Position numbers and translations under genes: made by a program
Source of the DNA: Actinomycetota bacterium
Lineage (GTDB): Bacteria; Actinomycetota; Actinomycetes; Actinomycetales; Microbacteriaceae
Reading direction: 5' to 3'
DNA length: 64,000 nt
Assembly: GCA_947449765.1 (NCBI GenBank)
Contig: CANFSP010000001.1
Span: forward strand, 124,001-188,000
Notes under the pieces: generated by a model
What the model was told of the DNA's origin: nothing
Seen by the model: the letters and a program-made list of their open reading frames with translations, nothing else
Databases searched by the model: none
Shown here: piece by piece, positions 45,982 to 64,000 of the stretch
How the letters are laid out: every line of letters begins with the position of its first letter
Numbering within the stretch: position 1 is the stretch's first letter

Positions 45982-47277
45982 CTAGCGAACCCGCGGACCG
46001 AGTTCGGGAACCTCGGCGTCGAGACGATCGCGCGCATCGCCGGCGGCAATGGCTTCGAGGATGATGGGCAGCGTACCGGCGTAGGCGTCCGCGATGGTTT
46101 TCATCGCGAGTTCATCGTGCGCATCCATCACGTTGTGGGTGGCGATCATGAGCACCCCGCGACGGCACATCTCCTGCATGAAGAGAATCTTGAGGTCGGC
46201 CAGTTGGTCACCGAGTTCAGGGTTCCAGACCAGGAACATCCACGAGGGGTGACCCTGCAGTGACACAACATGCTCTGCCCCGGCGTCACGAATGACCTGG
46301 TTGACCAGGTTGGCCAGTTTCTCGCCCTTGGCCGAAATGCGGCTGATCACGTCGGTTGACTTAATCCGCTCGAGAACGACCTTGGCAGCGGTGAGCGAAA
46401 GCAGCTCGCCACCGAAGGTTCCGGTAAAGAAGGCTTTCTCGAGCACCATCATGTACTCGCGCTTGCCGACGATAGCCGAGAGCGGGTAGCCGTTGGCCAT
46501 CCCCTTGCCAAACGTGGACAAGTCGGGTGTGACCCCGAAGTACTCTTGAGCGCCACCGTTCGAGAAGCGGAATCCGGTCACCATTTCGTCGAAGACCAGG
46601 AGAGCGCCGTACTTTGTGGCGAGATCGCGAACTCCCTGCAGGTAGCCCTCGGCTGGCCACTCGACCGTCATGATCTCCATGATGATGGCGGCGGTGGGGT
46701 GTGCCATGAGTGCGGCTTCCATCGCGGCCAGATCGTTGAACGGGACGGAGTGTGCGAGCGCGGCAACGTCATCGGGAACGCCGAGGTTTCGTGTGGGCGA
46801 GGTGCCGATGTACCAGTCGTGCCAACCGTGATAGCCGCAGACCACAACGTGGTCACGACCGGTGTAGCCGCGGGCGACGCGGATGGCGGCTGACGTGGCG
46901 TCGGAGCCGTTCTTACCGAAACGCACCATCTCGGCCGAGGGCACCAGATCAACGATGAGCTGAGCAACTTCGGTCTCAATCGGGTGGGTCAATGAAATAG
47001 TGACGCCAAGCGGAACCTGATTGACGACCGCTGCAGTGATGTCGGGGTCACCGTAGCCGATGTTGATGGCCGCGAGCCCGCTAATCAGGTCGACGTATTC
47101 GTGCCCGTCGAGGTCCGTGATTCGGCACCCTTCAGCTCGACTTCCGTACAGCGGCGCGATGCCGGCTGGGAGGGTGAGACGTGACTTGCTGACCGTTTGT
47201 GCACCGAGTGGGATGACGGCTTCCGCGCGCTTGAGCTGTGCGAGTGATGCGTCGTAGCGATTGGCTCCGGTCGGCAT
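45982..47277 (-). CDS. Class III aminotransferase (glutamate-1-semialdehyde aminomutase-like)
   Basis: PLP-dependent class III aminotransferase of 431 residues. DEMVTGFRFSNGG binds the cofactor, the Lys lies in the FGKGMANGYPLSAIVG segment, and the G-N-D-A region is NGSDATSAAIRVARGYT. AGGAGG precedes ATG 47277. It resembles HemL but is embedded in a nonulosonate-type operon between the cytidylyltransferase and the end of the operon. I infer a sugar or sugar-acid aminotransferase rather than tetrapyrrole synthesis; the substrate is unknown. Confidence 0.85.
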   Translation of the reverse strand: MPTGANRYDASLAQLKRAEAVIPLGAQTVSKSRLTLPAGIAPLYGSRAEGCRITDLDGHEYVDLISGLAAINIGYGDPDITAAVVNQVPLGVTISLTHPIETEVAQLIVDLVPSAEMVRFGKNGSDATSAAIRVARGYTGRDHVVVCGYHGWHDWYIGTSPTRNLGVPDDVAALAHSVPFNDLAAMEAALMAHPTAAIIMEIMTVEWPAEGYLQGVRDLATKYGALLVFDEMVTGFRFSNGGAQEYFGVTPDLSTFGKGMANGYPLSAIVGKREYMMVLEKAFFTGTFGGELLSLTAAKVVLERIKSTDVISRISAKGEKLANLVNQVIRDAGAEHVVSLQGHPSWMFLVWNPELGDQLADLKILFMQEMCRRGVLMIATHNVMDAHDELAMKTIADAYAGTLPIILEAIAAGDARDRLDAEVPELGPRVR

Positions 47278-47295
47278 AACCCCTCCTGGGTGTCG

Positions 47296-48027
47296 TTACT
47301 TGGTAAGTCCGGAATTGCGGGCGACGTCGTCATCTGTTCGAGACAGGGGAGGCTCGGCAGTCGCCAGCGCGAGAATCTCGGCCTGACCAAAACGTGGATT
47401 GTGGTCGTAGAGACGAGAATATACGAGTCTCACGAAGGCGAGGTCGTCTGCCACGTCCACGGTCCAGCGCAGATTGCTGATGTCGGGCTCTTGTTCCACC
47501 GAACGCAGGGTGAACTCGTCGGGGCGCGAGTACAGCCCCATCGTCACGTGCTCACGTTCCATTTCGCTGAGCGGGAGCGCGCACATGCGTGCAAACGCTG
47601 CGCCACTGATGCACTCCACATCGAGCCCATCCGGGTAGGTGGGCTTGAGAACATTGGATGTGTAGTCGGCGCCACTGGCGATGTGCTCCGCGATGACCCG
47701 GTCGATGGTCGCCGGATCGGCCAGCGGGCAGTCTGCGGTCAGTCGCACAATCGTGTCGGGCTGGAATTCGTCGACAATGATGCGAAACCGCTCCACCACG
47801 TCGTCGAGTGGTCCACGGCGCACCGTGACGCCGGCCGATTCGAGCACGGCGACCAAGGGATCATCGCTGGGGTCAACCGATGTCGCCACGACGAGGGCGT
47901 CAAGGTTGTGGCATTGTCGCAAACGCTCAATCTGACGCAGAATCATGGGCTCACCGTGCAGGTCCATGAGGACCTTGCCGGGCAGTCGCGTTGAGCTCAA
48001 ACGTCCCTGAAGAATTCCGAGTCTCAT
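47296..48027 (-). CDS. SpsF/PseF-like cytidylyltransferase
   Basis: Nucleotidyltransferase of 243 residues from the acylneuraminate cytidylyltransferase family. LGILQGRLSSTRLPGKVL is the CTP-binding signature, and TADCPLADPATID the metal-binding loop. It probably activates pseudaminic acid or a related nonulosonate as the CMP-sugar (the PseF step missing from the plus-strand genes). ATG 48027 overlaps the aldo/keto reductase stop (ATGA); the longer frame to 48051 is rejected. Confidence 0.85.
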   Translation of the reverse strand: MRLGILQGRLSSTRLPGKVLMDLHGEPMILRQIERLRQCHNLDALVVATSVDPSDDPLVAVLESAGVTVRRGPLDDVVERFRIIVDEFQPDTIVRLTADCPLADPATIDRVIAEHIASGADYTSNVLKPTYPDGLDVECISGAAFARMCALPLSEMEREHVTMGLYSRPDEFTLRSVEQEPDISNLRWTVDVADDLAFVRLVYSRLYDHNPRFGQAEILALATAEPPLSRTDDDVARNSGLTK

Positions 48028-48905
48028 GTCGTCACCTTTGTCGCGGGCCACACTCGGGGGTCGAGTACCTCGCGCGGCAGAGGGTCAATCGCCAGTTGCG
48101 GTGCTCGGTCTGCCGCTTGCCAGGCGGCGAGAATCTCGCCGAGTTCGTCGGACGAATTTGCTCCGGCGAGCACCACGTCGACATTCGGATGGAACTTCAG
48201 TGCGCCTAGGGCAACGGACTGCACCGATGTGGCGCTTCGTGCGGCCTCGGCACGGAGCGATCGCAGTGCGGGCGCGAGGGGCGCGAAGAACTCGGGGAGG
48301 GCATCCGGGTTGGCGAAAACGAGTCCCTGCAAAAACGCGCTGCGCACGTGAATTTGCACGCCGCGCTCGTGAAGTTCGCTCACCAGCGAACTAGACAACA
48401 GTTCGGTGTCACACGCATTAGCCGGAAGCTGAACGATGTCGAGATCCTCAAAAACGCTCAGTGCGCGCGAAAGATCATCCTCGTGGTAGACGCTCACCCC
48501 GGCGCGTTCGATGACACCCTCGGAGCGCGCCTCACGCAATATAGCCACGGCATCCCGGCAGCGGACGTCATCAAGATCAGCCAGCTTGTGAAACAGAACC
48601 CCTGCCACGCGTGAAACGCCCAGCTGGGCCATTGAGTTGCCGAACAGGTTGTCCCTGGTTGACAGAGCTCCATCGGTGGGAAGAGAAAACTTGGTGATGT
48701 ACCGCGCGGAGTATTCGGGCGGCATGAGTTCGCCGAGTCGTTGCTGCGATCGACCGTAGTCGGCGGCGGTGTCGAAGAGCGTCACTCCGCCGTCGTGCGC
48801 CTGCACGAGCATCCGCGTCATCTCGGCGTCACTAGGTGCGCCATCGGCGTTGGTGATTCCGTAGTCGATGCCGAAGGCGACGGTGCCCAGAGCCAGTTCA
48901 GCCAC
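48024..48905 (-). CDS. Aldo/keto reductase
   Basis: NADPH-dependent TIM-barrel reductase of about 293 residues. The catalytic Asp-Tyr pair is in FDTAADYGRSQQRLG; the Lys is in TKFSLP and the His in GVLFHKLADLDD. The start is probably GTG 48905, overlapping the GNAT stop; GTG 48941 is an alternative. It sits between the GNAT and the cytidylyltransferase with overlapping ends at both sides, so tight co-expression is likely. I infer reduction of a keto-sugar intermediate. Confidence 0.85.
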   Translation of the reverse strand: MAELALGTVAFGIDYGITNADGAPSDAEMTRMLVQAHDGGVTLFDTAADYGRSQQRLGELMPPEYSARYITKFSLPTDGALSTRDNLFGNSMAQLGVSRVAGVLFHKLADLDDVRCRDAVAILREARSEGVIERAGVSVYHEDDLSRALSVFEDLDIVQLPANACDTELLSSSLVSELHERGVQIHVRSAFLQGLVFANPDALPEFFAPLAPALRSLRAEAARSATSVQSVALGALKFHPNVDVVLAGANSSDELGEILAAWQAADRAPQLAIDPLPREVLDPRVWPATKVTT

Positions 48906-49440
48906 GGGGGTTGACCTTGCCAAGGAGGACCACGTCGTCACGATCGCCGGTGGTGAGTTTCACCTGTGAGCGCAAGAGACCCTCGCGCTCAAAACCGCAC
49001 GACTCAAACGCGCGAATCGATCCGACATTGCTCGCGTAGGCACCCGCGGTGACTTTGGCGAGCCCGAGAGCCTCAAAAGCCCATGCGGTGAGGGCGGCGA
49101 TGACTTCGGTCGCCACGCCTTTGCCCCACCAGTCGCTCTCACCAATAAACAAACCGATGGACGCGTTGTGGTGATGCGGATTGATTGGTCCCAATTTGAT
49201 GTTGCCGATATGGGCATCGGTTTCGGCAACCACGATGGCGAACAGGTATGAGTCCGTCGATGCCATTTGGGCGGCGACGAACGCACGCAGGCTTTCTGGG
49301 GTGCTCGTCGAAAAACGAGTTTCGAGAAATGCTGTGGTCTCGGGGTCGGAGAGCCAGCGGAGATAGTCAGCGCTGGCAAATGACTCGTCGAGTGTGACTA
49401 ACCGAAATCGCTCGGACCGGATGGGCTCGGAAACAATCAT
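48898..49440 (-). CDS. GNAT sugar N-acetyltransferase
   Basis: Protein of 180 residues. Typical of RimJ/PseH-like GNATs in O-antigen clusters: YLRWLSDPETTAFLETR near the N-terminus and IGESDWWGKGVATEVIAALTAWAF as the acetyl-CoA loop. ATG 49440 overlaps the FdtA-like gene stop (ATGA). In this operon it probably acetylates the 3-amino group of the sugar made by the FdtA/FdtB-like enzymes, or a nonulosonate precursor; inference from context. Confidence 0.82.
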   Translation of the reverse strand: MIVSEPIRSERFRLVTLDESFASADYLRWLSDPETTAFLETRFSTSTPESLRAFVAAQMASTDSYLFAIVVAETDAHIGNIKLGPINPHHHNASIGLFIGESDWWGKGVATEVIAALTAWAFEALGLAKVTAGAYASNVGSIRAFESCGFEREGLLRSQVKLTTGDRDDVVLLGKVNPRG

Positions 49441-52531: not shown

Positions 52532-53557
52532 TCAGCTCTGAGCAGTGTCGGATGTGGCGCGCTCCATTGCCGTGACGACGCGTTCCGCGCCTCGTCCGTC
52601 GAACTCGTCGAGGCAACGCTGAGAAAGTTCGCGGCGCTTACCCGCATCCGTGCACAGGCTGTCGAGTGATTCGCGAAGGCTGACTTCGAGCTCGGTTGAG
52701 GTCATGAGCCGCGGGCTGATGCCGATGACGAGACCTTGGGCGGTCATGGCTCGAAGACCCTCGGTTTGATTGTCGACCACTTCGACGAGAACCGAGGGGA
52801 TGCCCAACGTGCACAACTCCCACGACGACGTACCCGCTGCCGAAACGGCGATGTCTGCGGTGCCGAGGAGTGCCGGCAGGTCGTTGGTCGGCGGGACGAC
52901 GTGTAGCCCGGTGTGGCCGGCCACGATGGCATCCACCCGGGTTCGCCACGCGGGCGCACACACAATCGTGGCGCTCAGGGAAGTGGATGCTCGCGCCAAC
53001 GCTGAGGCGACGGGAACGATCATCCCGGTTGGGTCGCTTCCGCCCATCACGGCGACGACATGGGGCACGTCGGTCGCTAGTTCCCACGGAGCATTTCGGC
53101 GCACGTCGAGCACCGCCTGTCGGATGAGTGCGTAGCGCGACCCGGCGAGCAAGCGCGGGCGAACTGAATCGGGCCAGGCCAGCTTTTCGGCACCGATGTT
53201 GTGGTCGACATACACATCGGCGTCGATGCTGCGGTCGTCGCCGTCGACGATTGCGAGAACCTTCGTGCTCGCCCGTGCCTGAGAAATGAGGGCGGCGTCA
53301 ATTTCATAGGAGTCAACGACCAGCCAGTCAGGTCGAAAGGCCGCGATGAGATCGCTACTCAGGCTGTGCTGTGGCACTCGCTCAACGCTGACGTCCTGGC
53401 GTGAAATGAGATTTTCGAGCCAGTCCACGCCCGAGTGGTTTGTGGCCACGCGAACCTCGTGGCCTGCACGCCGCAAGGCTTCAGCAAGGGTCAGGCACCG
53501 CATGACGTGCCCCGTGCCCTGTGTGGGAGAGGCGTCGGCACGCAGGAGGACCTTCAC
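52532..53557 (-). CDS. pseG: UDP-2,4-diacetamido-2,4,6-trideoxy-beta-L-altropyranose hydrolase (PseG)
   Basis: Fourth step of pseudaminic acid synthesis: removes UDP from the diacetamido-trideoxyaltrose intermediate. The protein is 341 residues from GTG 53557, which has AAAGGA upstream; a longer frame starts at 53602. The N-terminus VLLRADASPTQGTGHVMRCLTLAEAL is the MurG-like PseG signature, and the C-terminal half has AAGTSSWELCTLGIPSVL for UDP binding. It is divergent from pseB and convergent with the transferase at 51010-52512. Confidence 0.9.
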   Translation of the reverse strand: MKVLLRADASPTQGTGHVMRCLTLAEALRRAGHEVRVATNHSGVDWLENLISRQDVSVERVPQHSLSSDLIAAFRPDWLVVDSYEIDAALISQARASTKVLAIVDGDDRSIDADVYVDHNIGAEKLAWPDSVRPRLLAGSRYALIRQAVLDVRRNAPWELATDVPHVVAVMGGSDPTGMIVPVASALARASTSLSATIVCAPAWRTRVDAIVAGHTGLHVVPPTNDLPALLGTADIAVSAAGTSSWELCTLGIPSVLVEVVDNQTEGLRAMTAQGLVIGISPRLMTSTELEVSLRESLDSLCTDAGKRRELSQRCLDEFDGRGAERVVTAMERATSDTAQS

Positions 53558-53647
53558 AGTGTCGTCCTTTCGCAGTGCCTGCACAGAGTTTGGTAGGCTC
53601 ACTAAGGCTTTAAAAGCGTTGCGCCCATCAATTTCGGAGGTTTGGCT

Positions 53648-54628
53648 GTGTCCATTCTAGAAGGCTCGTCGATCCTCATCACGGGCGGCACCGGTTCCTT
53701 CGGCAAGGCATTCATTGAGTATGCCTTGGCTCACCTCAACCCGAAGAAGATCGTCATCTTCTCGCGCGATGAGCTCAAGCAGTACGAGGTGCGTCTCAAG
53801 TTCGAAAACGACCCGCGCCTGCGCTTCTTCGTCGGTGACATCCGCGACCAGCACCGCCTCATGCGCGCGATGCACGGCATCGACTATGTGGTTCACGCTG
53901 CCGCTCTCAAGCAGGTCGACACCGCCGAGTACAACCCCTTCGAGTATGTGCAGACCAACATCATCGGTTCGCAGAACGTCATCGAGGCGTCGATTGATAC
54001 GGGCGTCAAGAAGATTGTCGCCCTGTCGACCGACAAGGCATCCAGCCCGCTCAACCTCTACGGCGCCACGAAACTCGCGGCCGACAAGCTGTTCCAATCG
54101 GCAAACCACTACGCCGCCGGATACGAGACCCGCTTCTCCGTTGTGCGTTACGGCAACGTCATGGGTAGCCGCGGATCGGTCATCCCCTTCTTCAAAGAGC
54201 TTGCCGCACGTGGCGAGTCGCTCCCGATCACCGATGAGCGCATGACTCGCTTCTGGATCACGCTGCCTCAGGCGGTGCAGTTCGTGGTCGACTCGTTCGA
54301 CTCCATGGTTGGTGGCGAGCTGTACGTTCCGCGTATCCCGAGCATGCGCATCCTCGATCTCGTAGAGGCGGTCGCACCCGGTTCGAAGACGCACACCGTG
54401 GGTATTCGTCCCGGCGAAAAACTGCACGAAGAGATGATTTCGCAGGATGACAGCCGTCGCACCCTGCGTCTTGACGACCGCTACGTGATTCTTCCCACCA
54501 TCGCGGAGTGGGGCTTCGTGGCTCCCACCGGTGAAGAAGTTGAGGATGGCTTCGCGTACCGCTCCGACTCGAACGACGAGTGGTTGAGCGTGGAGCAGCT
54601 TCGCGACCTTATCGAGAAATTCGCGTAA
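53648..54628 (+). CDS. pseB: UDP-N-acetylglucosamine 4,6-dehydratase (inverting) PseB
   Basis: First step: converts UDP-GlcNAc to the 4-keto-6-deoxy-L-arabino sugar. The protein is 326 residues. ITGGTGSFGKAF binds NADP, IFSRDELKQ and SPLNLYGATKLAADKL contain the family and catalytic residues, and YGNVMGSRGSVIPFF the substrate loop. GTG 53648 is preferred to TTG 53642 because GGAGG at 53636-53640 is 7 bases upstream of the GTG but only one base from the TTG. pseC follows after 2 bases. Confidence 0.94.
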   Translation: MSILEGSSILITGGTGSFGKAFIEYALAHLNPKKIVIFSRDELKQYEVRLKFENDPRLRFFVGDIRDQHRLMRAMHGIDYVVHAAALKQVDTAEYNPFEYVQTNIIGSQNVIEASIDTGVKKIVALSTDKASSPLNLYGATKLAADKLFQSANHYAAGYETRFSVVRYGNVMGSRGSVIPFFKELAARGESLPITDERMTRFWITLPQAVQFVVDSFDSMVGGELYVPRIPSMRILDLVEAVAPGSKTHTVGIRPGEKLHEEMISQDDSRRTLRLDDRYVILPTIAEWGFVAPTGEEVEDGFAYRSDSNDEWLSVEQLRDLIEKFA

Positions 54629-54630
54629 TC

Positions 54631-55761
54631 GTGTCGATTCCCTACGGTCGCCAATCAATCAGTGAGGCGGACATCGCAGCCGTTGCCGCTGTGATGACCA
54701 CCGATTGGCTCACCATGGGGCCGGTTCTCGCCGAGTTTGAGCAGGCTGTTGCCCAGCTGGCTCACACGCCCGCGGCCACCGCGGTGTCGTCGGGCACCTC
54801 GGCCCTGCACTGTGCCTACGCTGCCCTGGGTGTTGGTGAAGGTGACGAGGTCATCACCTCACCGATGACTTTTGTGGCCACCGCGGCAACGGCAATTGCC
54901 GAGGGCGCGAAGGTGCTTTTTGCTGACGTGCAACTCGACACCGGAAACATTGATGTCGACTCTGCCGCCGCGCTCGTGACGAGCAAAACCAAGGTCATTG
55001 CCGGCGTGGACTACGCCGGACACCCCGTCGACGCCGATGAGCTGAGCGCGCTTGCACACGGTGCCGGTGCGTTTTTCCTCGAAGACGCCGCGCACTCGAT
55101 TGCCTCCACTTATCGCGGCCGCCCGGTCGGCAGTCTCGCCGACATCACCGCGTTTTCGTTCTTTCCCACCAAGAACATGACCACCGGCGAGGGTGGTGCT
55201 GTGGTCGCACCCGACGCGGCACTGGTGGAGCGCGCGCGTCGCTTTCGCTCGCACGGTCTCGTGCGCGACAAGGCGGAGCAGCGGTACCCCGACGAGGGTC
55301 CGTGGCACCAAGAAGTGCACGAGTTCGGTCTCAACTACCGTTTGCCCGATGTGCTCGCCGCGATGGGTCTCAGCCAGATTGCGCGCATCGAGGAGTTCAA
55401 GGCGCGTCGCACCGCCATTTTTGATCGTTACACGGCAGAGCTGGCAGATGTCGACGGGCTGATTCTCCCGGCGAAGCGTGACTACGTCGACCCGATGTGG
55501 CACCTCTACCCCATTCGGGTTCAGGGTGGTCGTCGACGCGAGGTCTTCGAATTCATGCGCGCGCAAGGGGTTCTGGTTCAGGTCAACTACATCCCGGCGT
55601 ACTGGCATCCCGCCTTCGAAGATTTGGGTTACCAGCGCGGCATGTGCCCGAACGCGGAGCTCTACTACGAGCAGGAGATTTCGTTGCCGATGTATGCCGA
55701 TCTCACTCACGACCAGGTTTCCCGGGTCATTGAGGTGCTGCGCGCGGCTCTCGCCGCCTAA
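54631..55761 (+). CDS. pseC: UDP-4-amino-4,6-dideoxy-N-acetyl-beta-L-altrosamine transaminase PseC
   Basis: Second step: transaminates the PseB product at C4. The protein is 376 residues from GTG 54631 (VSIPYGRQSISEADI, the usual PseC start). SSGTSALHCAYAALGVGEGDEV, EDAAHSIASTYRGRPVG, and the PLP-Lys segment FSFFPTKNMTTGEGGAV are present. Two bases after pseB, so translationally linked. Confidence 0.93.
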   Translation: MSIPYGRQSISEADIAAVAAVMTTDWLTMGPVLAEFEQAVAQLAHTPAATAVSSGTSALHCAYAALGVGEGDEVITSPMTFVATAATAIAEGAKVLFADVQLDTGNIDVDSAAALVTSKTKVIAGVDYAGHPVDADELSALAHGAGAFFLEDAAHSIASTYRGRPVGSLADITAFSFFPTKNMTTGEGGAVVAPDAALVERARRFRSHGLVRDKAEQRYPDEGPWHQEVHEFGLNYRLPDVLAAMGLSQIARIEEFKARRTAIFDRYTAELADVDGLILPAKRDYVDPMWHLYPIRVQGGRRREVFEFMRAQGVLVQVNYIPAYWHPAFEDLGYQRGMCPNAELYYEQEISLPMYADLTHDQVSRVIEVLRAALAA

Positions 55762-55785: not shown

Positions 55786-56820
55786 ATGTCTAAGGTCAAC
55801 ACTTTTCCCGCGCGCGGGCCACTCATCGTTGCGGAGATCTCGGGTAACCACAACGGTTCGCTTCCTCGCGCACTCGACATCGTGCGCGCCATTGCTGACA
55901 CGGGCGCGCACGCGGTCAAGATTCAGACCTACACGGCTGACACCATCACCCTCGATGTGGATGCCCCGGCGTTCCGCATCTCCGGTGGCCACGAGCTGTG
56001 GTCGGAGCGTCGCCTCTACGAGCTCTACCAAGAAGCCCACACCCCGTGGGAGTGGCACGAACCGATCTTCTCGCTCGCAAACGACTTAGGGATGATGGCC
56101 TTCAGTACGCCATTCGACGAGACGGCCGTTGACTTTCTCGAAACCTTTGACGTGCCACTCTACAAAATCGCCTCGCTCGAAATCGTGGATTTGCCGCTGA
56201 TCAAGCAGGTTGCCGAGACGGGCAAGCCGGTCATCATTTCGGTGGGCACCGGGTCGATCGCCGAAGTTGCCGAGGCTGTGGCCGCTGCGCGAGCCGGTGG
56301 ATGCACGGACCTCACGCTCCTCGCCTGCACCAGCTCATACCCGGCACAACCCGACGATGCCAACCTGCTCCGCATGCCCGTCATGGCGGACATGTTCGGG
56401 GTCAAGGTCGGCCTCTCCGACCACACGATGGGCACGGGTGTTTCGGTGGCCGCCGCCGCACTCGGCGCGACCGTCATTGAAAAGCACGTTACTCTTCGCC
56501 GCTCCGATGGCGGCGTCGACAGCGCCTTCTCGCTCGAACCGGCCGAACTCGCGCAGTTGGTCGAGGCCTGCGACGCAGCCGTTCGTGCGCTCGGTTCGGC
56601 CAGTGCGTGGGCAACCTCCGCCGAGAACGAGTCCCTGCGCCTGCGACCCTCGCTCTACGTTGCTGAGGATGTCAAAGCCGGCGATGTCGCGGATGCGCGT
56701 AATGTGCGCTCCGTTCGCCCCGGTGGCGGCCTCCCGCCCAAAGAGATTGAGCGTGTGCACGGTCGCGTGTTCACCGCGGATGCGCCCAAAGGAACGCCCG
56801 TCAGCTGGGACCTTTTTTAG
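55786..56820 (+). CDS. pseI: Pseudaminic acid synthase PseI
   Basis: Condenses the hydrolysed 6-deoxy-diacetamido-altrose with PEP to give pseudaminic acid. The protein is 344 residues. NeuB-type barrel: IVAEISGNHNGSLPRALDI, AVKIQTYTADTITL, STPFDETAVDFLE, and metal- or PEP-binding SDHTMG. The C-terminal SAF antifreeze-like domain starts near residue 285 (LRPSLYVAEDVKAGD). CAGGAGAGA precedes ATG 55786, 24 bases after pseC. Confidence 0.93.
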   Translation: MSKVNTFPARGPLIVAEISGNHNGSLPRALDIVRAIADTGAHAVKIQTYTADTITLDVDAPAFRISGGHELWSERRLYELYQEAHTPWEWHEPIFSLANDLGMMAFSTPFDETAVDFLETFDVPLYKIASLEIVDLPLIKQVAETGKPVIISVGTGSIAEVAEAVAAARAGGCTDLTLLACTSSYPAQPDDANLLRMPVMADMFGVKVGLSDHTMGTGVSVAAAALGATVIEKHVTLRRSDGGVDSAFSLEPAELAQLVEACDAAVRALGSASAWATSAENESLRLRPSLYVAEDVKAGDVADARNVRSVRPGGGLPPKEIERVHGRVFTADAPKGTPVSWDLF

Positions 56821-56844: not shown

Positions 56845-57306
56845 TCAGCGATCGAGCACGTACTGACCGACGCCGTCAATAGTGTCGGTTAGTTCGTAGC
56901 CAGCCTTCGTAAAAATCGCGATACTCGGCGCGTTCGTGGACCGAATCTGTGCGGTCGTCCCGCGCAGGTCGGGTCGGTCAACGGCGAACTGCTCGAGCCC
57001 GGCAATCAGGGTTCTGGTTCCGAAGCCCTTGCCGCGGGCATTTGGATTGAGATTGATACTCACCTCAGCGCGTTCGCCCGCCTCGTCAATGTCGAAGCGA
57101 ATCATGCCGATCGCGTTCGCTCCATCCCGAACGAGGTAAATGACTCGGCGGGGATTCTCCAGCGAGGCAGCGAACCACCGCTCATGGTCGGCCCACGCAA
57201 CCTCATCGGTGTTGAGTGATACGGCACGGGTTTGTGGGTCGTTACGCCACGCAAACAGGTCAGCCGAATCGGCCTGGGTCGCGCGGGCAACGGTGAGCTG
57301 AGACAT
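56845..57306 (-). CDS. GNAT N-acetyltransferase, PseH-like
   Basis: Likely third step: acetylates the 4-amino group of the PseC product. The protein is 153 residues. The N-terminus LFAWRNDPQTRAVSLNTDEVAWADHERWF follows the PseH pattern, and LNPNARGKGFGTRTL is the acetyl-CoA loop. Encoded opposite to pseBCI but directly behind pseI, which supports the assignment. ATG 57306 follows TAAGTT (57313-57318) by 6 bases, a leaderless layout. Confidence 0.82.
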   Translation of the reverse strand: MSQLTVARATQADSADLFAWRNDPQTRAVSLNTDEVAWADHERWFAASLENPRRVIYLVRDGANAIGMIRFDIDEAGERAEVSINLNPNARGKGFGTRTLIAGLEQFAVDRPDLRGTTAQIRSTNAPSIAIFTKAGYELTDTIDGVGQYVLDR

Positions 57307-57349
57307 GCTTCGAACTTATTGCATGAGCCCATCTGTTAGCGTGAAACGC

Positions 57350-59134
57350 GTGAAACTCCTGTTCTTCAGCCCGTTCGCCAACATCTGGGAACACGCCTTT
57401 CCCGAGGGGCTCGTGGCCGAAGGACTGCGCGACCGCGATGCCGAAATTGTGACCGTGCGCTGTGACGGACTGATGCAATCTTTTTGTGTCGCGATGAGCG
57501 CATCCGGTCTCACCGCAGCGGATACCCTGCGCAAGAAAAAGCAGGTGTGCGCCGCGTGCCGAAAACGACGTAACCTTCTCGATTCGTCGTTTGGTTTTCC
57601 GTCCGTGCTCATCGAGCGATACATTACGGCGGATGATCGCGCCGAAGCCGAGCGCATCTCAGCTGGCGCCACCCTCGAATCCTGGCCGGCCATTGCACTC
57701 GATGGTGTAGCAATCGGTCGGTATGCCGCGTATGAGTTTCTGCTCAACTACAAGGTGCTGGGTACGGAGATTTCAGCTGAGCTGTTTCCCATTTATCAGG
57801 AGCAGCTGCGGGTGAGCATCCTCGTCTTGCGTGCCAGCGCACGCATATTGGACGAGCAGCAACCCGATGCGGTCATTACCTACAACCGCCTCTACGGCGT
57901 CAACCACGCCTTTCTGGCCATCGCCGAGGCGCGTGGACTGCCGACGTACACCCTCCAGGGCGGCGGTCACGTGACCCTGCGCGGCGAAACCATGACGATG
58001 TTCTTAGACAGCAACACCCTCTTTCAAGAGCTCGACTCGGTGAACTGGCAGAGTTTTGCGTCGACGCCAGTCAACGAGTTCGAAGCCAACTTGGTGAACT
58101 CCCACCTCGACGGACTCATGGAAGCCAGCAGCGCGTTCGCCTACTCAAGTGCGTTTGAGGCCGCCGAGCCAGACGACATTCGTGCCCGCTTCAACATTGC
58201 TGAGGATGCGCCAGTTCTCCTCATCCCGATGTCGAGTGAGGACGAGCTGAATGCCGCCCAGCTTGCCGACCTGCTGCCCGACACGTCACACAAGCCCAAC
58301 CTGTTTGCCGACCAGTTCGCCTGGATTCGCTACCTGTTTGAGTTTGCACGGCAGCGCCCGGGCTACCGTTTCATCTTGCGACTGCATCCGCGCATGTTCC
58401 CCAATAAGCGCGAGAGCGTGGTGGCGCCGGTGGTGGCACGCGTGATGGCACTCATCGACGAGGCGCCAGCGAACGTCGTGATCAACCTGCCCAGTGATGA
58501 TGTGAGCATCTACGACCTACTCCAGATTGTGGATGTCGTGCTGGGCTACCGCTCGAGTGTTGGCGCGGAGTTCGCCGCCTACGGCTTACCCGTGGTGGCA
58601 CCTGCCAACAAGGATTTCTTCTCGTACCCCAGTGAGGTCAACAAGACCGCGTTCACCGAGGACGAGTTCGCTACGTTGATCGACGAGGCCGTTACCACCG
58701 GTTGGTCGCTCGAGAACATGCGCATTGTCTATCGCTGGTTCGCGTTCTTGTTCACTCGCATTGCCGTCGACTTCTCCGATTCGGTGAACGCCAAACCGAT
58801 TGCCATTCGCCCCAAGAAGCCCGGCTTGCGCCTGTGGCTCTGGCGCAAGATGGTCTACCTCATCATTCAGTTCGGTCCGCTCATTCGTGAGCGTCTCGCC
58901 CTGCGCGGGCGTAGCTCATCTGAGACGACGAAAGACATTTTCGCCGACACCATCGTGAACCGCCGGGCCAGCCTGACCGCGTCATCGAAGTGGCCCGCGC
59001 GCTCGTCGAGCCTCGAGGATGAAACGCGCCTGTTGCGCGAGCGCCTCGCTTGGCTTGAAGCCAACGCGTGGTCGGGCTATCGCTCGCGCGCCTCGCTCGC
59101 CGCAACGGTCAGTGCAGTTCTCCGCAAAAAGTGA
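57350..59134 (+). CDS. Large capsule-type GT-B glycosyltransferase
   Basis: Protein of 594 residues from GTG 57350; TAGCGT (57337-57342) lies 7 bases upstream, and the product then begins MKLLFFSPFANIWEHAF. A CAAC pair (Cys67, Cys70) in a basic stretch may bind metal. The central and C-terminal part has LQGGGHVTLRG, FILRLHPRMFPNKRES and VVLGYRSSVGAEFAAYGLPVVAP, shared with the transferase at 51010. A tail from about residue 480 has an amphipathic basic helix region (LRLWLWRKMVYLIIQFG), which may bind the membrane. Donor unknown; a nonulosonate is plausible from context. Confidence 0.72.
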   Translation: MKLLFFSPFANIWEHAFPEGLVAEGLRDRDAEIVTVRCDGLMQSFCVAMSASGLTAADTLRKKKQVCAACRKRRNLLDSSFGFPSVLIERYITADDRAEAERISAGATLESWPAIALDGVAIGRYAAYEFLLNYKVLGTEISAELFPIYQEQLRVSILVLRASARILDEQQPDAVITYNRLYGVNHAFLAIAEARGLPTYTLQGGGHVTLRGETMTMFLDSNTLFQELDSVNWQSFASTPVNEFEANLVNSHLDGLMEASSAFAYSSAFEAAEPDDIRARFNIAEDAPVLLIPMSSEDELNAAQLADLLPDTSHKPNLFADQFAWIRYLFEFARQRPGYRFILRLHPRMFPNKRESVVAPVVARVMALIDEAPANVVINLPSDDVSIYDLLQIVDVVLGYRSSVGAEFAAYGLPVVAPANKDFFSYPSEVNKTAFTEDEFATLIDEAVTTGWSLENMRIVYRWFAFLFTRIAVDFSDSVNAKPIAIRPKKPGLRLWLWRKMVYLIIQFGPLIRERLALRGRSSSETTKDIFADTIVNRRASLTASSKWPARSSSLEDETRLLRERLAWLEANAWSGYRSRASLAATVSAVLRKK

Positions 59135-59179: not shown

Positions 59180-60037
59180 CTAGCCGTGGTGCATGCTCAG
59201 CGGGCCACCCGCGTAGCGCATGAGCACGTAGGGCTTGCCGTTGTCCGAGAGGATGGGGTCCAGCGCCACGCGAACCGTCTCGTACACGCCATCCTTTTTC
59301 CACTGAGCAATCATCTCGGCGGGCACAATGACCCGACGGGACTGGCGGGTGGTGAGGTGCACATCCTGACGCCACAGTTCGTCACCCTTTTCGGAGATCA
59401 CCTTGACGACGGTGTCGCCGGGGGCGGCGGCGTGGTTCATCACGACGACCATGAGTTCATCGAGCAGGTTCACATCCAGAAGGCGCCACGATTCCCATGG
59501 AGCCCGGGCCTGCGGAGCGTGGGCCAGCATCTGGTTGATCGGCCACATGGCGCCGAAAATCTTGCCGCGGTACGACTCGATGGAGTGCACGTACATGTAG
59601 TTGTCGGCGCTGTCGCGATACGACACCCAGAATGGAGTCTGAATGTTGAGAGCGCTCAAGTTCGGAATCGTCTTTAGTTTTGACTTGACCGCCTTGGGCG
59701 GGAGTACGTCGACCATCACCATGCCTTCGACGTCCATGTCGTAGCCGGCGATGTCCTCAATCTCGAGGTAGAGCTGGCCGAATGCAGGCATCTCGAAGCT
59801 CTTGTGTGCCACGATTTTGCCGTCCGAATTGCACAACCACACGCGAGCTGTGACCGGGGTGAGCTCATCCGGAAAGAACATCGAGTAGTAGTTCTGCAGG
59901 TGGACGCGCGAGCGCAGACCGGCCGTGTTCATGAAATAGTGCGCGAACGCGCGACGCGGGATGAACCCGGACTCGAGAATGCCGTTGTACCCGCGCTGCG
60001 CGAGGGGGTTTTTGGCGAGTGAACTAAGCAGAGACAT
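59180..60037 (-). CDS. Glycan-cluster protein of unknown function, two-module (b)
   Basis: Protein of 285 residues from ATG 60037, which overlaps the end of the next gene by 14 bases and has GGAG upstream. No signal peptide, membrane helix or catalytic motif. Two segments of similar pattern, near residues 62-95 (VWLCNSDGKIVAHKSFEMP) and 208-240 (VISEKGDELWRQDVHL), look like copies of a small beta-rich module; the same pattern occurs twice in the neighbouring protein. In between are HSIESYRGKIFGAMWPI and LLDVNLLDELMVVVMNHAA. I do not recognise the family. Confidence 0.65.
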   Translation of the reverse strand: MSLLSSLAKNPLAQRGYNGILESGFIPRRAFAHYFMNTAGLRSRVHLQNYYSMFFPDELTPVTARVWLCNSDGKIVAHKSFEMPAFGQLYLEIEDIAGYDMDVEGMVMVDVLPPKAVKSKLKTIPNLSALNIQTPFWVSYRDSADNYMYVHSIESYRGKIFGAMWPINQMLAHAPQARAPWESWRLLDVNLLDELMVVVMNHAAAPGDTVVKVISEKGDELWRQDVHLTTRQSRRVIVPAEMIAQWKKDGVYETVRVALDPILSDNGKPYVLMRYAGGPLSMHHG

Positions 60038-61001
60038 CGGCAAGCTCCTTTGCGCCAGCTGGCGTGAGGCTGTCGGCAATGACGTCTTCGCCAAAGACGA
60101 TTTCGTGCAGCAGCGTATTGGCCTCGAGGCGACGCTGACCGCCCCAGGTGGAGAAGTAGTAGATCGGGGGCAGCGTGTGGTCGCACGCGATGGCGCCGGT
60201 TTCCAGGTTGCGCGTCATCGAGACCGGTACGAGGCCGGCGTCGCGACAGAGCCCGAGGATCATCCCCAGACCACCGTCGGCAATGAACGAGTCGAGAAGA
60301 TTGTTCTTTTCGAGCAGCTCGCGCACGCTGATGAATCGGCAGGTCCACGCGGGCACGGTGGCCTCTCCGCGGGCGACTTTCTTGCCCGCGGGGTCGATGA
60401 GCCAGTACTCCATGTGCGCTTCGTCGGTGTAGTCGAGGCTGGTCGACGGGTTGATCACCGCAAAGAGCGTGTCGACAGTCGGCGTGACGATCGCCTTGGG
60501 AGCTTGAAGCAGAGTGGTGCGCGTCTTGTTGAAGCGGAAATCGTTTTGTGGCCCCATTTGGTAGGCCACACCGGTAATGACTCCCTTGGGCTCTTGACGG
60601 AACTCGATGAAGTCGTCAGCGGCACCAACGTGAGCCTTAAGTTCGTTCGGATCAACCGTGACGAGCTTCTGACCCACAAAGCGCGTGGGAACCATGTGTG
60701 CCACACCGAGCATGTTGCCCTTGGTCTTCACCTTGAGGTCTTTGAGCACGTCGCGCGTGTCGAGCTTGATGATGTCGCCGGGCTTCAAGTGAGCCAGCAC
60801 GGGGCTGGTGACGATGTGCTTGCCCTTGTCGTCGAAGAACGAAATCGACATCTCGAAATCGGTGGTGTACGGACCGCTCTTCAACCCGTTATTGACCGTG
60901 ATGGATGTGCCATACGACAGCTCGCCCAGAATCGGGAAAATGCAGGGGCGATAAAACAGCGGATCGAAATTCTCGACGGTCTCAGGGGCGGTTTTAGCCA
61001 C
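60024..61001 (-). CDS. Glycan-cluster protein of unknown function, two-module (a)
   Basis: Protein of 325 residues, first gene of a two-gene unit. No signal peptide or membrane segment. Module-like segments near residue 48-85 (FFDDKGKHIVTSPVLAHLKP) and 195-228 (YWLIDPAGKKVARGEATVP) resemble each other and those of the following protein. Other notable stretches are FYRPCIFPILGELSYGTS, MGPQNDFRFNKTRTTLL, and HTLPPIYYFSTWGGQRRLEAN near the end. A beta-sandwich accessory or glycan-binding role is possible; I assign no function. Confidence 0.65.
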   Translation of the reverse strand: MAKTAPETVENFDPLFYRPCIFPILGELSYGTSITVNNGLKSGPYTTDFEMSISFFDDKGKHIVTSPVLAHLKPGDIIKLDTRDVLKDLKVKTKGNMLGVAHMVPTRFVGQKLVTVDPNELKAHVGAADDFIEFRQEPKGVITGVAYQMGPQNDFRFNKTRTTLLQAPKAIVTPTVDTLFAVINPSTSLDYTDEAHMEYWLIDPAGKKVARGEATVPAWTCRFISVRELLEKNNLLDSFIADGGLGMILGLCRDAGLVPVSMTRNLETGAIACDHTLPPIYYFSTWGGQRRLEANTLLHEIVFGEDVIADSLTPAGAKELADVSA

Positions 61002-61044: not shown

Positions 61045-62004
61045 CTACCGCGCGGCGAGGGCTTGCTTACGGGCGCGCTGACGCTTGCGCGCTTCCAGCA
61101 CGGCGGTGATGGCGACACCACGCGCCACTCCGTAGGCGCTCTCTGCAAAGACGGTTTTGGCAAGCCAGGCATCACACCGTTCATCGAATTGGGGTTCACC
61201 CGAGGTCAGTTCGTCACGCGCGCCATCAAACAGCGGGAGCTCATCCCACGGCGCCTTCATCACGGTGTGTGTACCCTCGTCATAGCCCGCGTATGTCACC
61301 AGATTCGCGTTGGGCGAGAGCACAAAGCGATCGTGCGCCCACATGCTGGCAATCCAGCGATACGCCCACGTGGAGATGCGACCGGCTGCGGCATCGGCGA
61401 AGTTCTGCTTCCAGCGGAGCGCACCCATCCGAGACCCGGTGATGCGCGCTAAGTCGGATACCGAAACATTGCGCGCCCACTCGAGAGTGGGGTCGTACTG
61501 AGCCCACGCCCGATCCCAGGTCGCCCAGGCGATCGATTCGGGGTAGCGACTCAAGCGACTACCCCGAGCGCCCTGAGTCAGATGAGTTGGCGGCACGACG
61601 TTGTAACCAGAAATGTGAGCAATGCGTTCCTCGTCACGGTACCGCTCGAGCATCTCGTTGGCATACGGCAACCAGTCGTGCCCGGGAAGGGTGTCCTCCT
61701 CGAGAACGACAACCTGGCCAAAAGTGTTGACCGCGTGAGTGACCGCATCCGTGACCGCGATTTGGAGTCCGGCGTTGACCTCGCGGAAGCGCGTTTCGAC
61801 ATGGGGTGTCCACGTGATGCGTTCCACCAACGCGCGAACCGCATCCACTTTTTCGGCGTCACCGGCGATGTGCGGCTTGGGTCCGTCGACCGAAAAAATC
61901 ACGTTGCGCGGCTTGATTTCGGCGAGCCGTTCGATCAGGCGTTCCACCTTGCCGGCGCGGTTGTAGCCCAAGATGACGACGGGGGTCTCACGCACGGTAA
62001 TCAC
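61045..62004 (-). CDS. GT-A glycosyltransferase (GT2/GnT-I-like)
   Basis: About 319 residues. The nucleotide-binding start is TPVVILGYNRAGKVERLIERLAE; FSVDGPKP and VVLEEDTLPGHDWL (acidic metal-binding motif EED) follow, then HISGYNVVP and IAWATWDRAW, a pattern seen in HlpA-like/GnT-I-like transferases. The start is uncertain: GTG 62004 avoids overlap with the divergent dehydrogenase, while an ATG at 62082 would extend into it. Forms the upstream neighbour of the two-module pair on the same strand, 43 bases away. Confidence 0.8.
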   Translation of the reverse strand: MITVRETPVVILGYNRAGKVERLIERLAEIKPRNVIFSVDGPKPHIAGDAEKVDAVRALVERITWTPHVETRFREVNAGLQIAVTDAVTHAVNTFGQVVVLEEDTLPGHDWLPYANEMLERYRDEERIAHISGYNVVPPTHLTQGARGSRLSRYPESIAWATWDRAWAQYDPTLEWARNVSVSDLARITGSRMGALRWKQNFADAAAGRISTWAYRWIASMWAHDRFVLSPNANLVTYAGYDEGTHTVMKAPWDELPLFDGARDELTSGEPQFDERCDAWLAKTVFAESAYGVARGVAITAVLEARKRQRARKQALAAR

Positions 62005-62068
62005 GACACTTTCGGTAGGCTTAGGGAGGCTTTGAGTCAATTCTCCCAATACCGGAAGGCCTTCGCGC

Positions 62069-63328
62069 GTGAAAGCAGTCATTGTCGGTCTCGGCTATGT
62101 CGGGCTGCCGTTGGCCATCGCCGCCGCCGAAGCGGGAGTCCAGGTCACCGGCCTCGACAAAAACGAGGAGATTGTCAGCGGATTAACCGTGGGACGCAGT
62201 CACATTGACGACTTTACGGATGCTGACATTGCGTCGTTGGTCGCAACCGGATTCACTGCGACGACCGATTCGGCGGTGATCGCAGAAGCCGACATCGTGG
62301 TGATCTGCGTTCCCACGCCACTCAACCGAGCGGGCGAACCAGACCTCGCCGCGGTCATGGCGGCCTCGCGTGACATCGCCGCCAATGCGAGTGCCGGTCT
62401 CACCGTCGTGCTGGAGTCCACCACGTACCCGGGTACCACGGAAGAGGTTCTGCAGCCCATCCTGGAAGAGCGCGGTTTCACCATTGGATCCGACCTGTTC
62501 CTCGCCTTCTCACCTGAGCGCATCGACCCGGGCAACCCCACCTTCGGAATCACGAATACGCCGAAGATTGTTGGCGGGGTAACTAAAGCTTGCGGCGACA
62601 AGGCAGCCGCGTTTTACGAGCGCTTCATCGATACCGTGGTTCGCGCCAAGGGCACACGCGAGGCGGAGACCGCGAAGCTTCTCGAAAACACCTATCGCCA
62701 CATCAACATCGCACTCGTCAACGAGATGGCGCAACTGTGCCACGCAATGGGCATCGACATCTGGGATGTGGTTGACCTCGCCAAGACCAAGCCCTTCGGT
62801 TTCCAGTCATTCCGGCCAAGCGCGGGTGTTGGCGGGCACTGCATCCCGATTGATCCGAACTATCTCGCCTTCAAGGTTCGTGCTGAGCTCTCGCGCCCCT
62901 TCCAGTTCATTGAGCTCGCCGAAGAGGTCAACTCAGGAATGCCGGGTTACGTGGCACAGCGCATGGCCGCGCTGCTTCAGGCTCATCACAGCAACATCTC
63001 AGGTTCGACAGTTACGTTGCTCGGCGTGACGTACAAGCCGAACATTTCCGACAAACGCGAATCACCGGCTGTACCACTAGCCGAAAAGCTCATCGAACTC
63101 GGCGCAACCGTGAAATATGTTGACCCGTTTGTTGACGACTGGTCAATCAATGGTTCGCCTATTGAGCGTTTTGCCTCCGTTCAGGATGCCCTTGCCGAGT
63201 CCCACGCGGCCATCATTGTTCAGGCACACAGCGACTTCGTTGCCGCGGCTGATGTCCTCGCTTCAAGCCGCACACCGCTACTCGATGCCACGGGTCGCTT
63301 CACAGGCGAGCACCTCGAGCGGCTGTAG
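62069..63328 (+). CDS. UDP-HexNAc 6-dehydrogenase (WecC/WbpA family)
   Basis: NAD-dependent four-electron oxidation of UDP-ManNAc or UDP-GlcNAc to the uronic acid. The protein is 419 residues. VGLGYVGLPLAIAAAEAG binds NAD, CVPTPLNRAGEPDL is the class marker, catalytic Cys258 lies in GVGGHCIPIDP, and GVTYKPNISDKRESP starts the C-terminal UDP-binding domain. GTG 62069 has GGAAGG 9 bases upstream. UDP-ManNAcA or UDP-GlcNAcA is expected; the epimer cannot be read from sequence. Confidence 0.9.
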   Translation: MKAVIVGLGYVGLPLAIAAAEAGVQVTGLDKNEEIVSGLTVGRSHIDDFTDADIASLVATGFTATTDSAVIAEADIVVICVPTPLNRAGEPDLAAVMAASRDIAANASAGLTVVLESTTYPGTTEEVLQPILEERGFTIGSDLFLAFSPERIDPGNPTFGITNTPKIVGGVTKACGDKAAAFYERFIDTVVRAKGTREAETAKLLENTYRHINIALVNEMAQLCHAMGIDIWDVVDLAKTKPFGFQSFRPSAGVGGHCIPIDPNYLAFKVRAELSRPFQFIELAEEVNSGMPGYVAQRMAALLQAHHSNISGSTVTLLGVTYKPNISDKRESPAVPLAEKLIELGATVKYVDPFVDDWSINGSPIERFASVQDALAESHAAIIVQAHSDFVAAADVLASSRTPLLDATGRFTGEHLERL

Positions 63329-63333
63329 CAGTC

Positions 63334-64000
63334 ATGGCGACCACTCGACGCACAGACGGTCTGCGCGGCTACTGCTCCTACTTTGACAGTGGATATCTCT
63401 CGCGAGGAATCACGCTCATTGAGTCCCTGCGAGCTAACGGTGACAATTCGCCCATCTATGTGCTCGCCCTCGATGACGGAGTTGCCGACTATTTCGCGCG
63501 CTTCCCGCGCGAGGGGGTTCACGTCATTCGTGTCGGCGCACTCGAAGCGGTGGAACCGGGTCTTCTTGCGGTCAAAAAAAAGCGCACCCGGATGGAGTAC
63601 TACTTCACCTGCACACCGCTCCTCATTCGTTACGTGCTCAACCAGCTGAACACCCCCGGTTCGGTCGCGATTTACCTCGACGCGGACATGTACTTTTTCG
63701 ATGACCCCTCACTGGTCGTGCAGGCGCTCGGTGACGACTCCGTTGGCATCATTGAGCACCGATACCCGGATCGAGCTGCTCGTAAGCTCGCCAAGTACGG
63801 CCGGTTCAATGTGGGTTGGGTCGGTTTTCGGGATGACGTCCATGGTCGTGCGGTGCTCGACTGGTACGCCACGCAGTGTCTCGACTGGTGTTCTGACACC
63901 CCCTCGGATGGCCGTTACGCAGATCAGGGCTACCTCAACTGGTTCCCCGATTTTGACGGAGTGCGGGTGCTTCCTGAAGCGGGATTTAACCTCGCTCCCT
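63334..64000 (+). CDS. Glycosyltransferase, 3' partial
   Basis: Open frame from ATG 63334 to the right edge without a stop (222 codons visible), 5 bases after the dehydrogenase. The N-terminus GYCSYFDSGYLSRGITLIESLRANG and the DxD-like metal motif IYLDADMYFFDDP indicate a GT-A fold, GT8-like. Further on, GWVGFRDDVHGRAVLDWY and DQGYLNWFPD are typical. It shows that the surface-glycan locus continues to the right. The C-terminus is outside the window. Confidence 0.85.
   Translation, partial: MATTRRTDGLRGYCSYFDSGYLSRGITLIESLRANGDNSPIYVLALDDGVADYFARFPREGVHVIRVGALEAVEPGLLAVKKKRTRMEYYFTCTPLLIRYVLNQLNTPGSVAIYLDADMYFFDDPSLVVQALGDDSVGIIEHRYPDRAARKLAKYGRFNVGWVGFRDDVHGRAVLDWYATQCLDWCSDTPSDGRYADQGYLNWFPDFDGVRVLPEAGFNLAP

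Follow-up and report, generated by a model that had tools for sequence, protein, structure and literature searches.

A coupled gene pair of Microbacteriaceae encodes ASRAH-like beta-sandwich modules and accompanies pseudaminic acid synthase

A 64,000-nucleotide stretch of a Microbacteriaceae genome (assembly GCA_947449765.1, contig CANFSP010000001.1, positions 124,001 to 188,000 of the forward strand; hereafter the window) contains two adjacent minus-strand genes, here called A and B, beside genes for pseudaminic acid (Pse). The two proteins comprise four beta-sandwich modules, two in each, which we conclude with good confidence share one fold and arose by duplication. The proteins are probably kin to the ASRAH superfamily, which is defined by ASRT and TM1070 (De Souza, Iyer and Aravind 2009, PMC2739507). 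Moreover, the pair accompanies pseudaminic acid synthase (PseI) in all six genomes in which it was found, and a functional link to a Pse glycan is quite likely.

Two overlapping genes and their four modules

The genes and modules are listed below (all on the minus strand; -N and -C denote the two modules of each protein).

60024..61001, minus: gene A, 325 aa, GTG start; a highly conserved linker connects its two ASRAH-like modules
60627..60953, minus: module A-N, A residues 17-125 (to 152 in the structural alignment described below); TM1070/ASRT-like beta-sandwich; invariant Asn37/38
60489..60617, minus: linker, A residues 129-171; 129-144 identical in five complete sequences; fold not confidently predicted
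60144..60497, minus: module A-C, A residues 169-286; holds YWLIDPAGKKVARGEATVP; invariant Asn184
60024..60037, minus: overlap of the A end and the B start, 14 bases; presumed translational coupling
59180..60037, minus: gene B, 285 aa, ATG start; also with two ASRAH-like modules
59564..59953, minus: module B-N, B residues 29-158; holds VWLCNSDGKIVAHKSFEMP; invariant Asn49
59183..59500, minus: module B-C, B residues 180-285; beta-sandwich; invariant Asn201

A sequence-only reading of the window had placed two coupled minus-strand genes here. Both were found at those positions, but the start listed for gene B, a TTG at 60094, lies too far upstream and was revised to the ATG at 60037, 7 bases after AGGAG. 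Because an overlap recurs in the other four complete loci (14 bases in L013, L014 and L015 and 4 bases in L016, with the chosen starts), we infer that A and B are likely translated in a coupled manner, as two subunits. No signal peptide or membrane-like stretch was found in ten A and B sequences (top 19-residue hydropathy mean 1.43).

The same reading had described one repeat pattern occurring four times, twice in each protein. AlphaFold models, built from alignments of seven (A) and six (B) rows, show a common order of strand, strand, G-K or G-D turn, strand, strand, short helix and strand in four stretches (A 33-105, A 176-265, B 41-112 and B 192-275). The modules were also compared by hhalign. 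As controls, 52 decoy segments taken from proteins nearby were used in forward and reversed form, together with the reversed modules, giving 108 comparisons (107 where the target was one of the four segments). The pair offered as the example of the pattern, A-C and B-N, scored above all 107 comparisons in both directions (P 2.8e-4 and 5e-4), which bears out the pattern for these two segments. The match of A-C to A-N stood above all 107 one way and was exceeded by 4 of 107 the other way, that of A-N to B-N was exceeded by 7/107 and 4/107, and pairs involving B-C were exceeded by 3 to 36 of 107. A hidden Markov model (HMM) of gene B, run over 2,956 open reading frames (ORFs) of fetched regions, ranked gene A of three genomes (E 0.096, 0.23 and 0.44) behind gene B and retrieved nothing else. 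The gene A HMM retrieved no gene B at E<=0.5 from the same ORFs, and BLASTP of A against B gave a weak match (E 0.052 over 30 residues).

Two or three of the four copies are thus supported by sequence comparison, and the last by structure and the invariant Asn; the predicted strand order and the shared invariant Asn are also what mainly suggest A-N and B-C as members of the repeat. The decoy-controlled profile comparison upholds the proposed duplication of a beta-sandwich unit for part of the pairs, and the order of strands in the two models and the shared Asn uphold it as well; no clearly unrelated folds appeared among the four segments. Three points weigh against this conclusion. The models are of moderate confidence: the mean predicted local distance difference test score is 63 for A and 72 for B, most strands of the core score about 70-90, and A 126-170 is not resolved. 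The decoys are mostly alpha/beta proteins and hence a lenient control. Finally, in an earlier hhalign run, reversed B-C matched B-N (P 0.033) better than forward B-C did.

Probable kinship with the ASRAH superfamily

ASRAH domains have been described as eight-stranded sandwiches and predicted sugar binders, which occur as solo intracellular tetramers, secreted actinobacterial dyads and amidase-linked tetrads. Their hallmarks are a nearly absolute Asn ending strand 2 and a well-conserved Trp that opens strand 1, usually after a polar residue, and the pocket of the TM1070 tetramer was placed at the sheet face and, partly, the dimer interface. The intracellular members were predicted to be sensors acting on neighbouring sugar enzymes (PMC2739507).

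Searches of Pfam, NCBIfam and PHROGs returned no model at E<=1 for A or B, and no amidase domain was found in either protein with Pfam or NCBIfam. In the Protein Data Bank, A had no match by sequence and B had seven (E 0.09-1.8), and searches by profile gave one match each (E 1 and 1.3); all were taken as chance. Over the 13 alignment rows (seven A, six B), Pfam at E<=10 yielded Mannosidase_ig in 2 of 6 B rows (best E 6e-4), which fits a beta-sandwich. Three other families in one B row each (E 0.03-0.18) and Peptidase_M41 in 2 of 7 A rows (E 0.02) were taken as chance. The ASRT family, PF07100, was absent from all 13 rows at E<=10, a search in which HMMER filters drop weak matches. The sequence-only reading had found no recognisable family; that is true of the curated models, but the fold points to ASRAH.

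The models were compared by VIA-align with the top Foldseek chains. TM1070 (1nc7) ranked first for A 17-152 (Z 8.8, 3.1 Å, 100 residues) and also for B 29-158 (Z 8.1, 3.2 Å, 102 residues). The next four rows for A-N were ASRT entries, with Z 8.0 (2iia, 2ii7, 2ii8) and 7.8 (2ii9), after which Z fell to 5.5, while the second row for B was 6nob (Z 7.6), matching the C-terminal module.

Sequence profiles were made from 14 solo ASRT sequences, 23 domains of large tandem-repeat proteins and 29 DUF5719 proteins. These reference profiles interlink (ASRT with tandem repeats 97.7%, ASRT with the second DUF5719 domain 93.6%, first DUF5719 domain with tandem repeats 95.2%), the link of ASRT to the first DUF5719 domain, which is the one matched by B-N, B-C and A-N, reaching only 24.3%. 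None of the 108 control comparisons exceeded the hhalign matches of B-N to the tandem-repeat ASRAH domains (P 1e-3) and to the first DUF5719 domain (P 6.6e-4), or those of A-N and B-C to the first DUF5719 domain. The tandem-repeat HMM, run over the 2,956 ORFs at E<=0.5, retrieved two strong DUF5719-HMM matches and then gene B of L014 (E 0.09). As judged from these profiles, the sequence link to ASRAH runs through the tandem-repeat domains and DUF5719, not directly to ASRT.

The strand-2 Asn of ASRAH was found in all four modules, where Asn37/38 and Asn184 of A and Asn49 and Asn201 of B are invariant in the five complete sequences. Among 36 predicted strands, five end in an invariant Asn, and all four strands that precede a hairpin are among these five (hypergeometric 8.5e-5); part of the strands counted are in low-confidence regions, and the choice of the four was made with the hairpins known. 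In ten hhalign alignments, Asn fell on Asn in five (B-N with DUF5719, B-C with DUF5719, B-C with ASRT (weak), A-C with the tandem repeat and A-C with A-N) and failed to do so in one (B-N with the tandem repeat), and four alignments stopped short of it.

Several results weigh against the kinship. In the structural comparison, VIA-align itself warns that a Z near 8 may reflect merely a common arrangement, none of the 50 rows for B was an ASRT entry, and A 169-286 and B 180-285, both modelled as beta-sandwiches of the same strand order, were covered by no row for TM1070 or ASRT. Raw Foldseek ranks glycoside-hydrolase-2 chains first; these were rejected as a whole-chain match because the root-mean-square deviation was about 13 Å or more over long alignments. 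Among the profile comparisons, 12 to 96 of 108 exceed the match of each segment to ASRT, so that no segment stands out there; the same holds for A-C with every ASRAH profile (15 to 96), and 3 to 52 comparisons exceed the matches to the second DUF5719 domain. Moreover, reversed A-C matches ASRT (P 0.021) better than the forward segment, and the ASRT HMM matched none of the 2,956 ORFs, A and B included. As to the hallmarks, no Trp precedes strand 2 in A-N, A-C or B-N, B-C alone having Ser183-Trp184, and the SHEshChhN signature of ASRT is missing in all four modules, which at that position read SYGTSITVN (A-N), VDTLFAVIN (A-C), RSRVHLQN (B-N) and ELMVVVMN (B-C). Because the strand-1 Trp is missing in three modules and the His-Cys signature in all, we call A and B ASRAH-like and leave them outside any described family.

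Three kinds of ASRAH protein bear comparison with the pair. The solo ASRT-like proteins (PF07100; ASRT of Anabaena, TM1070 of Thermotoga) are likewise intracellular beta-sandwiches with an Asn at the end of strand 2 and ties to sugar genes, TM1070 being the best structural match of both N-terminal modules. However, they are single domains of about 105-145 aa that form tetramers and carry both the SHEshChhN signature and the strand-1 Trp, whereas A-B consists of two genes with two modules each, neither signature and no PF07100 match.

Actinobacterial ASRAH dyads were linked to a WhiB regulator, a glycosyltransferase and an inactive zincin (PMC2739507). From this gene neighbourhood we infer that the third family of that work, a cell-surface dyad lipoprotein, is DUF5719 (PF18986). 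It is a tandem of two ASRAH domains, as A and B are tandems of two ASRAH-like modules; its first domain gave the matches of B-N, B-C and A-N that stood above all decoys, and in L016, the locus of Aurantimicrobium minutum, one gene separates a DUF5719 gene from A-B. It differs in being a secreted lipoprotein present in 57 of 59 relatives searched, whereas A-B lacks a signal peptide and was found in six genomes; the N-termini of A and B are nowhere strongly hydrophobic (15-residue means <=1.41) and show no signal peptide with a lipobox Cys of the DUF5719 type. In L016 (5078-11772), A-B stands beside a glycosyltransferase-2 (GT2), DUF5719 and zincin-like locus that resembles the known loci of secreted dyads, with the DUF5719 protein next to the GT2 gene and a weak Zincin_1 match, as in the neighbourhood described in PMC2739507. 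The window genome has its own DUF5719 gene just upstream of the window (G000:C1:121862-122572).

Finally, the multi-domain ASRAH proteins, with at least four tandem domains, also have several domains per unit, and B-N matches the tandem-repeat profile above all decoys. They are single long polypeptides, however, secreted and amidase-fused in PMC2739507, whereas the modules of A-B are split over two proteins. The profile was built from large proteins in L032-L047, likened to the tetrads of that work by their ASRAH repeats alone. Such large proteins with repeated ASRAH domains occur in several genomes of the phylum, with up to four weak-to-moderate matches each. By eye, two or more of them have NHL-like repeats before the ASRAH domains, an arrangement absent from the main text of PMC2739507.

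Distribution of the pair and its association with the pse cluster

Gene B was found in 4 of 299 Microbacteriaceae genomes drawn and, by profile, in 5 of 398 genomes of the family (4 of 85 genera); in a draw over the phylum it was present in 1 of 346, the window genome itself. Gene A had no second strong match in 59 relatives or in 297 genomes of the order, and a scan of an 84,980-species collection with gene A gave five loci, using two strict peptide patterns that may miss distant relatives. Six carrier genomes were obtained in all, Microbacteriaceae as far as placed: the window genome, G192 (L013), G063 (L009 and L017), G090 (L015), G950 (L016; A. minutum MWH-Tana7) and G1011 (L014; a metagenome-assembled genome of Rhodoglobus). 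G063, also a metagenome-assembled genome, has gene A split over contig ends (L017/L009) and gene B frameshifted near base 500 (L009:331-1181). G1012, reached via L017, was taken as the same assembly because its PseI match lies at an identical contig number and coordinates. A and B are adjacent in every carrier, as seen in G063 only from the L009 end. A cargo of phages or plasmids was rejected as the nature of the pair, gene B having no match in phage and plasmid collections and PHROGs none; an IMG/VR scan, with gene B only, gave nine pattern stretches and no relative.

Co-occurrence with pse genes across the family had been set beforehand as a check, and it was borne out. PseI was over the curated cut-off in 6/6 carriers against 7/73 non-carriers (p 6e-6), the latter being hand-picked and including all seven known PseI-positive non-carriers, which raises the background; the curated model was run on 80 handles, G1012 repeating G063. 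These seven have PseI at 47-84% identity with PseB and PseC adjoining. In an even draw, PseI was present in 4/4 carriers and about 7/245 non-carriers (p 2e-6). NeuB-family proteins occur in 93/249 genomes of the family, a count that overstates the PseI background, and the non-carrier congener G136, for example, has the NeuB type. Of the 89 NeuB-positive non-carriers, 63 were typed: 38 fetched regions served for 36 genomes, and the curated PseI model for a further 27. The results agreed for the eleven region-typed genomes to which both were applied. The 26 others were counted as lacking PseI, since none of the 10 regions fetched with match range 1-241 was of the PseI type. Within the four genera that hold a placed carrier, PseI was present in 5/5 carriers and 0/12 searched genus mates (p 1.6e-4), with 7 of the 12 mates from one genus and relatedness uncorrected. 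All these comparisons draw on only six carrier genomes, which weighs against a firm reading of the association.

The window pse cluster consists of the following genes.

45982..48941, minus: trio of aldo/keto reductase, cytidylyltransferase and class-III aminotransferase (Pfam)
52532..53602, minus: PseG, TIGR03590 over cut-off
53642..54628, plus: PseB, TIGR03589 over cut-off
54580..55761, plus: PseC-like aminotransferase, TIGR03588, 414 bits against a cut-off of 423.5; listed start overlaps PseB and is probably too far upstream
55786..56820, plus: PseI, pseudaminic acid synthase, TIGR03586, 449 bits, over cut-off
56845..57306, minus: PseH-like GNAT acetyltransferase, TIGR03585 E 5e-15, below cut-off; Pfam Acetyltransf_3
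57305..59134, plus: 609-aa protein, candidate nonulosonate transferase; sub-cut-off match to the BFO_1060 glycosyltransferase model
61045..62082, minus: 345-aa GT2-like protein, below Pfam cut-off
62069..63328, plus: nucleotide-sugar dehydrogenase, TIGR03026 over cut-off

The 609-aa gene and the GT2-like gene flank A-B in the window. In G090 the pair stands beside the counterpart of the gene at 63334, followed by the dehydrogenase, GT2, 609-aa and GNAT genes, and in G192 and G063 it follows the class-III aminotransferase, the trio directly adjoining A-B in L013 and L017. In the two remaining genomes the pair is away from the cluster. In G950 it lies on contig 1, flanked by the DUF5719/zincin-like genes and by the gene that corresponds to the first one of the window, with the pse cluster on contig 2 largely in window order. 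In G1011 it lies among transporter-like genes, with the cluster on contig 30, where the GT2 and 609-aa genes are adjacent without A-B. L014 and L016, which have no pse genes within up to 10 kb on each side, were taken up as counter-cases to the Pse link and rejected as such, as a genome-wide search located PseI, together with most of the cluster, in each of the two genomes; PseG was not seen in region L146 of the L014 genome. A counterpart of the 609-aa gene is present in 6/6 carriers (partial at a contig end in G063). Thus A-B occupies three different places in the cluster and none in two genomes, and because it accompanies the Pse pathway though its position varies, mere linkage is argued against.

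On the other side stands the non-carrier G107, which has PseB, PseC, PseG, PseI and the GNAT, 609-aa, GT2, dehydrogenase and trio genes without A-B; neither of the two gene B searches of the family matched this genome. Because it has nearly the same cluster without the pair, A-B is an accessory for which there is no strict need. The glycan-related accessory role foreseen by the sequence-only reading is backed by the co-occurrence with PseI, which is its only basis, but is qualified by this genome.

Several features of these clusters were noted on the side. Between the 609-aa gene and PseI, G107 has three genes of 428, 281 and 334 aa without a window counterpart by BLAST (L123:4370-8265), possibly for alternative glycan decorations. 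The trio is kept together in the carrier loci L013, L090 and L146 and in the non-carrier G107 (L123), which suggests an extra step of the nonulosonate pathway. ABC-exporter-like proteins of 606 aa (L008:7768-9588, G090) and 615 aa (L090:1860-3707, G950), alike by eye, edge the pse cluster and are perhaps a glycan exporter. A comparable cluster is that for Pse O-glycosylation in Tannerella forsythia, in which pse genes, GT-B and GT-A transferases and a WecC dehydrogenase likewise stand together; it belongs to another phylum, and the portion of the account available mentions hypothetical proteins without detail and no A-B counterpart (PMC6120980).

Possible roles of A and B

The computed properties of the pair (fold class, duplication, overlap, a hydropathy that shows neither signal peptide nor membrane helix, PseI co-occurrence) are the starting point of our proposal, which adds complex formation, sugar binding, the identity of the ligand and sensing or scaffolding. 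We give about an even chance to A-B being a cytosolic four-module sugar-binding accessory that senses or scaffolds Pse-glycan assembly. A and B would be soluble, cytosolic and translationally coupled, each a tandem of two ASRAH-like beta-sandwich modules, and one A with one B would form a four-module body, the number found in the TM1070 tetramer. The modules would bind a sugar of the Pse pathway, which may be CMP-pseudaminic acid (CMP-Pse), a precursor or the growing Pse-containing glycan; that the ligand itself contains Pse is a tentative suggestion. A pocket wall or a partner surface could lie in the conserved stretches between modules (A 129-171 and B 134-158), through which A-B would sense the ligand for the glycosyltransferases of the cluster or hold them together. 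A bolder form of this proposal, which we regard as unlikely, is that A-B would be the first dedicated cytosolic receptor for nonulosonic acids, a pseudo-tetrameric ASRAH-type sensor of CMP-Pse or of a Pse-ended glycan that gates the cluster glycosyltransferases.

The pair might instead be a passenger, an accessory of surface-glycan islands whose co-occurrence with pse genes comes from a shared transfer history, with no action on Pse. Its patchy distribution (5/398 family genomes) agrees with this, as A-B is missing in the two listed congeners of the window genome and in 7 of the 8 genomes of the genus to which G950 belongs, and so does the nearly complete cluster of G107. A pure passenger, however, should not track PseI in 6/6 genomes, and the pair lies on another contig than the pse cluster in G950; in G1011 the cluster region has no A-B and belongs to a contig of different length, and elsewhere the position within the cluster varies. 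Moreover, at 57-74% identity of the other carriers' proteins to those of the window, 142/325 positions of A and 124/285 of B are invariant among the five complete sequences, a conservation that speaks for a kept function and leaves the passenger explanation quite unlikely.

That conservation might also mark a catalytic heterodimer, for instance an enzyme of new fold that modifies or transfers Pse and has its catalytic centre in A 129-171 and B 134-158. In A the invariant positions form a longest run of 16 residues, at 129-144, which is unexpected under random placement (P 0.0002), and the block 129-171 around it has many Asp, Glu, Arg, Gln and Lys residues; the 9-residue run of B at 134-142 is less marked and not clear (P 0.08). 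Against catalysis, no enzyme family was over cut-off, for which reason a known enzyme family was rejected for A-B, the cluster already has candidates for the Pse steps and several transferases, and no catalytic ASRAH members have been described (PMC2739507). We consider an enzyme improbable.

Pse is often placed on bacterial surface proteins, as on the S-layer of T. forsythia in the part of PMC6120980 available, and A and B could themselves be acceptors, structural proteins that receive Pse and leave the cell by some route. By eye, the 606-aa ABC-exporter-like protein directly precedes A in L008, and ABC-transporter-like genes flank A-B on both sides in L014. An ABC exporter could equally carry the glycan, though, and the lack of a signal peptide or membrane stretch noted above makes it distinctly improbable that A and B are acceptors. 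Many freshwater Microbacteriaceae carry actinorhodopsins, and the fold match of A-N to ASRT would allow A-B to be a soluble rhodopsin partner, as ASRT is in Anabaena, with an indirect link to Pse; this is extremely unlikely, since no rhodopsin gene was noticed by eye in the inspected loci, where no dedicated search was made, and most ASRT-like genes have no rhodopsin link, the linkage being described only in Nostoc (PMC2739507).

A literature search that left most subscription journals uncovered found no description of the A-B pair, nothing on DUF5719 or on pseudaminic acid together with Microbacteriaceae, and no test of the 2009 prediction that ASRAH proteins are sugar sensors. A-B is likely a small new branch of this superfamily of predicted sugar sensors, tied to a defined sugar pathway. 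With two genes and an obvious candidate ligand pathway, it offers a narrow test of the prediction for intracellular members, and A. minutum MWH-Tana7 is among its carriers. If the receptor reading were true, the pair would be a feedback device for bacterial sialic-acid-like sugars that works without a transcription factor. A and B are probably previously undescribed helpers of the pseudaminic acid pathway, and would add an accessory to the assembly of pseudaminic acid glycans.

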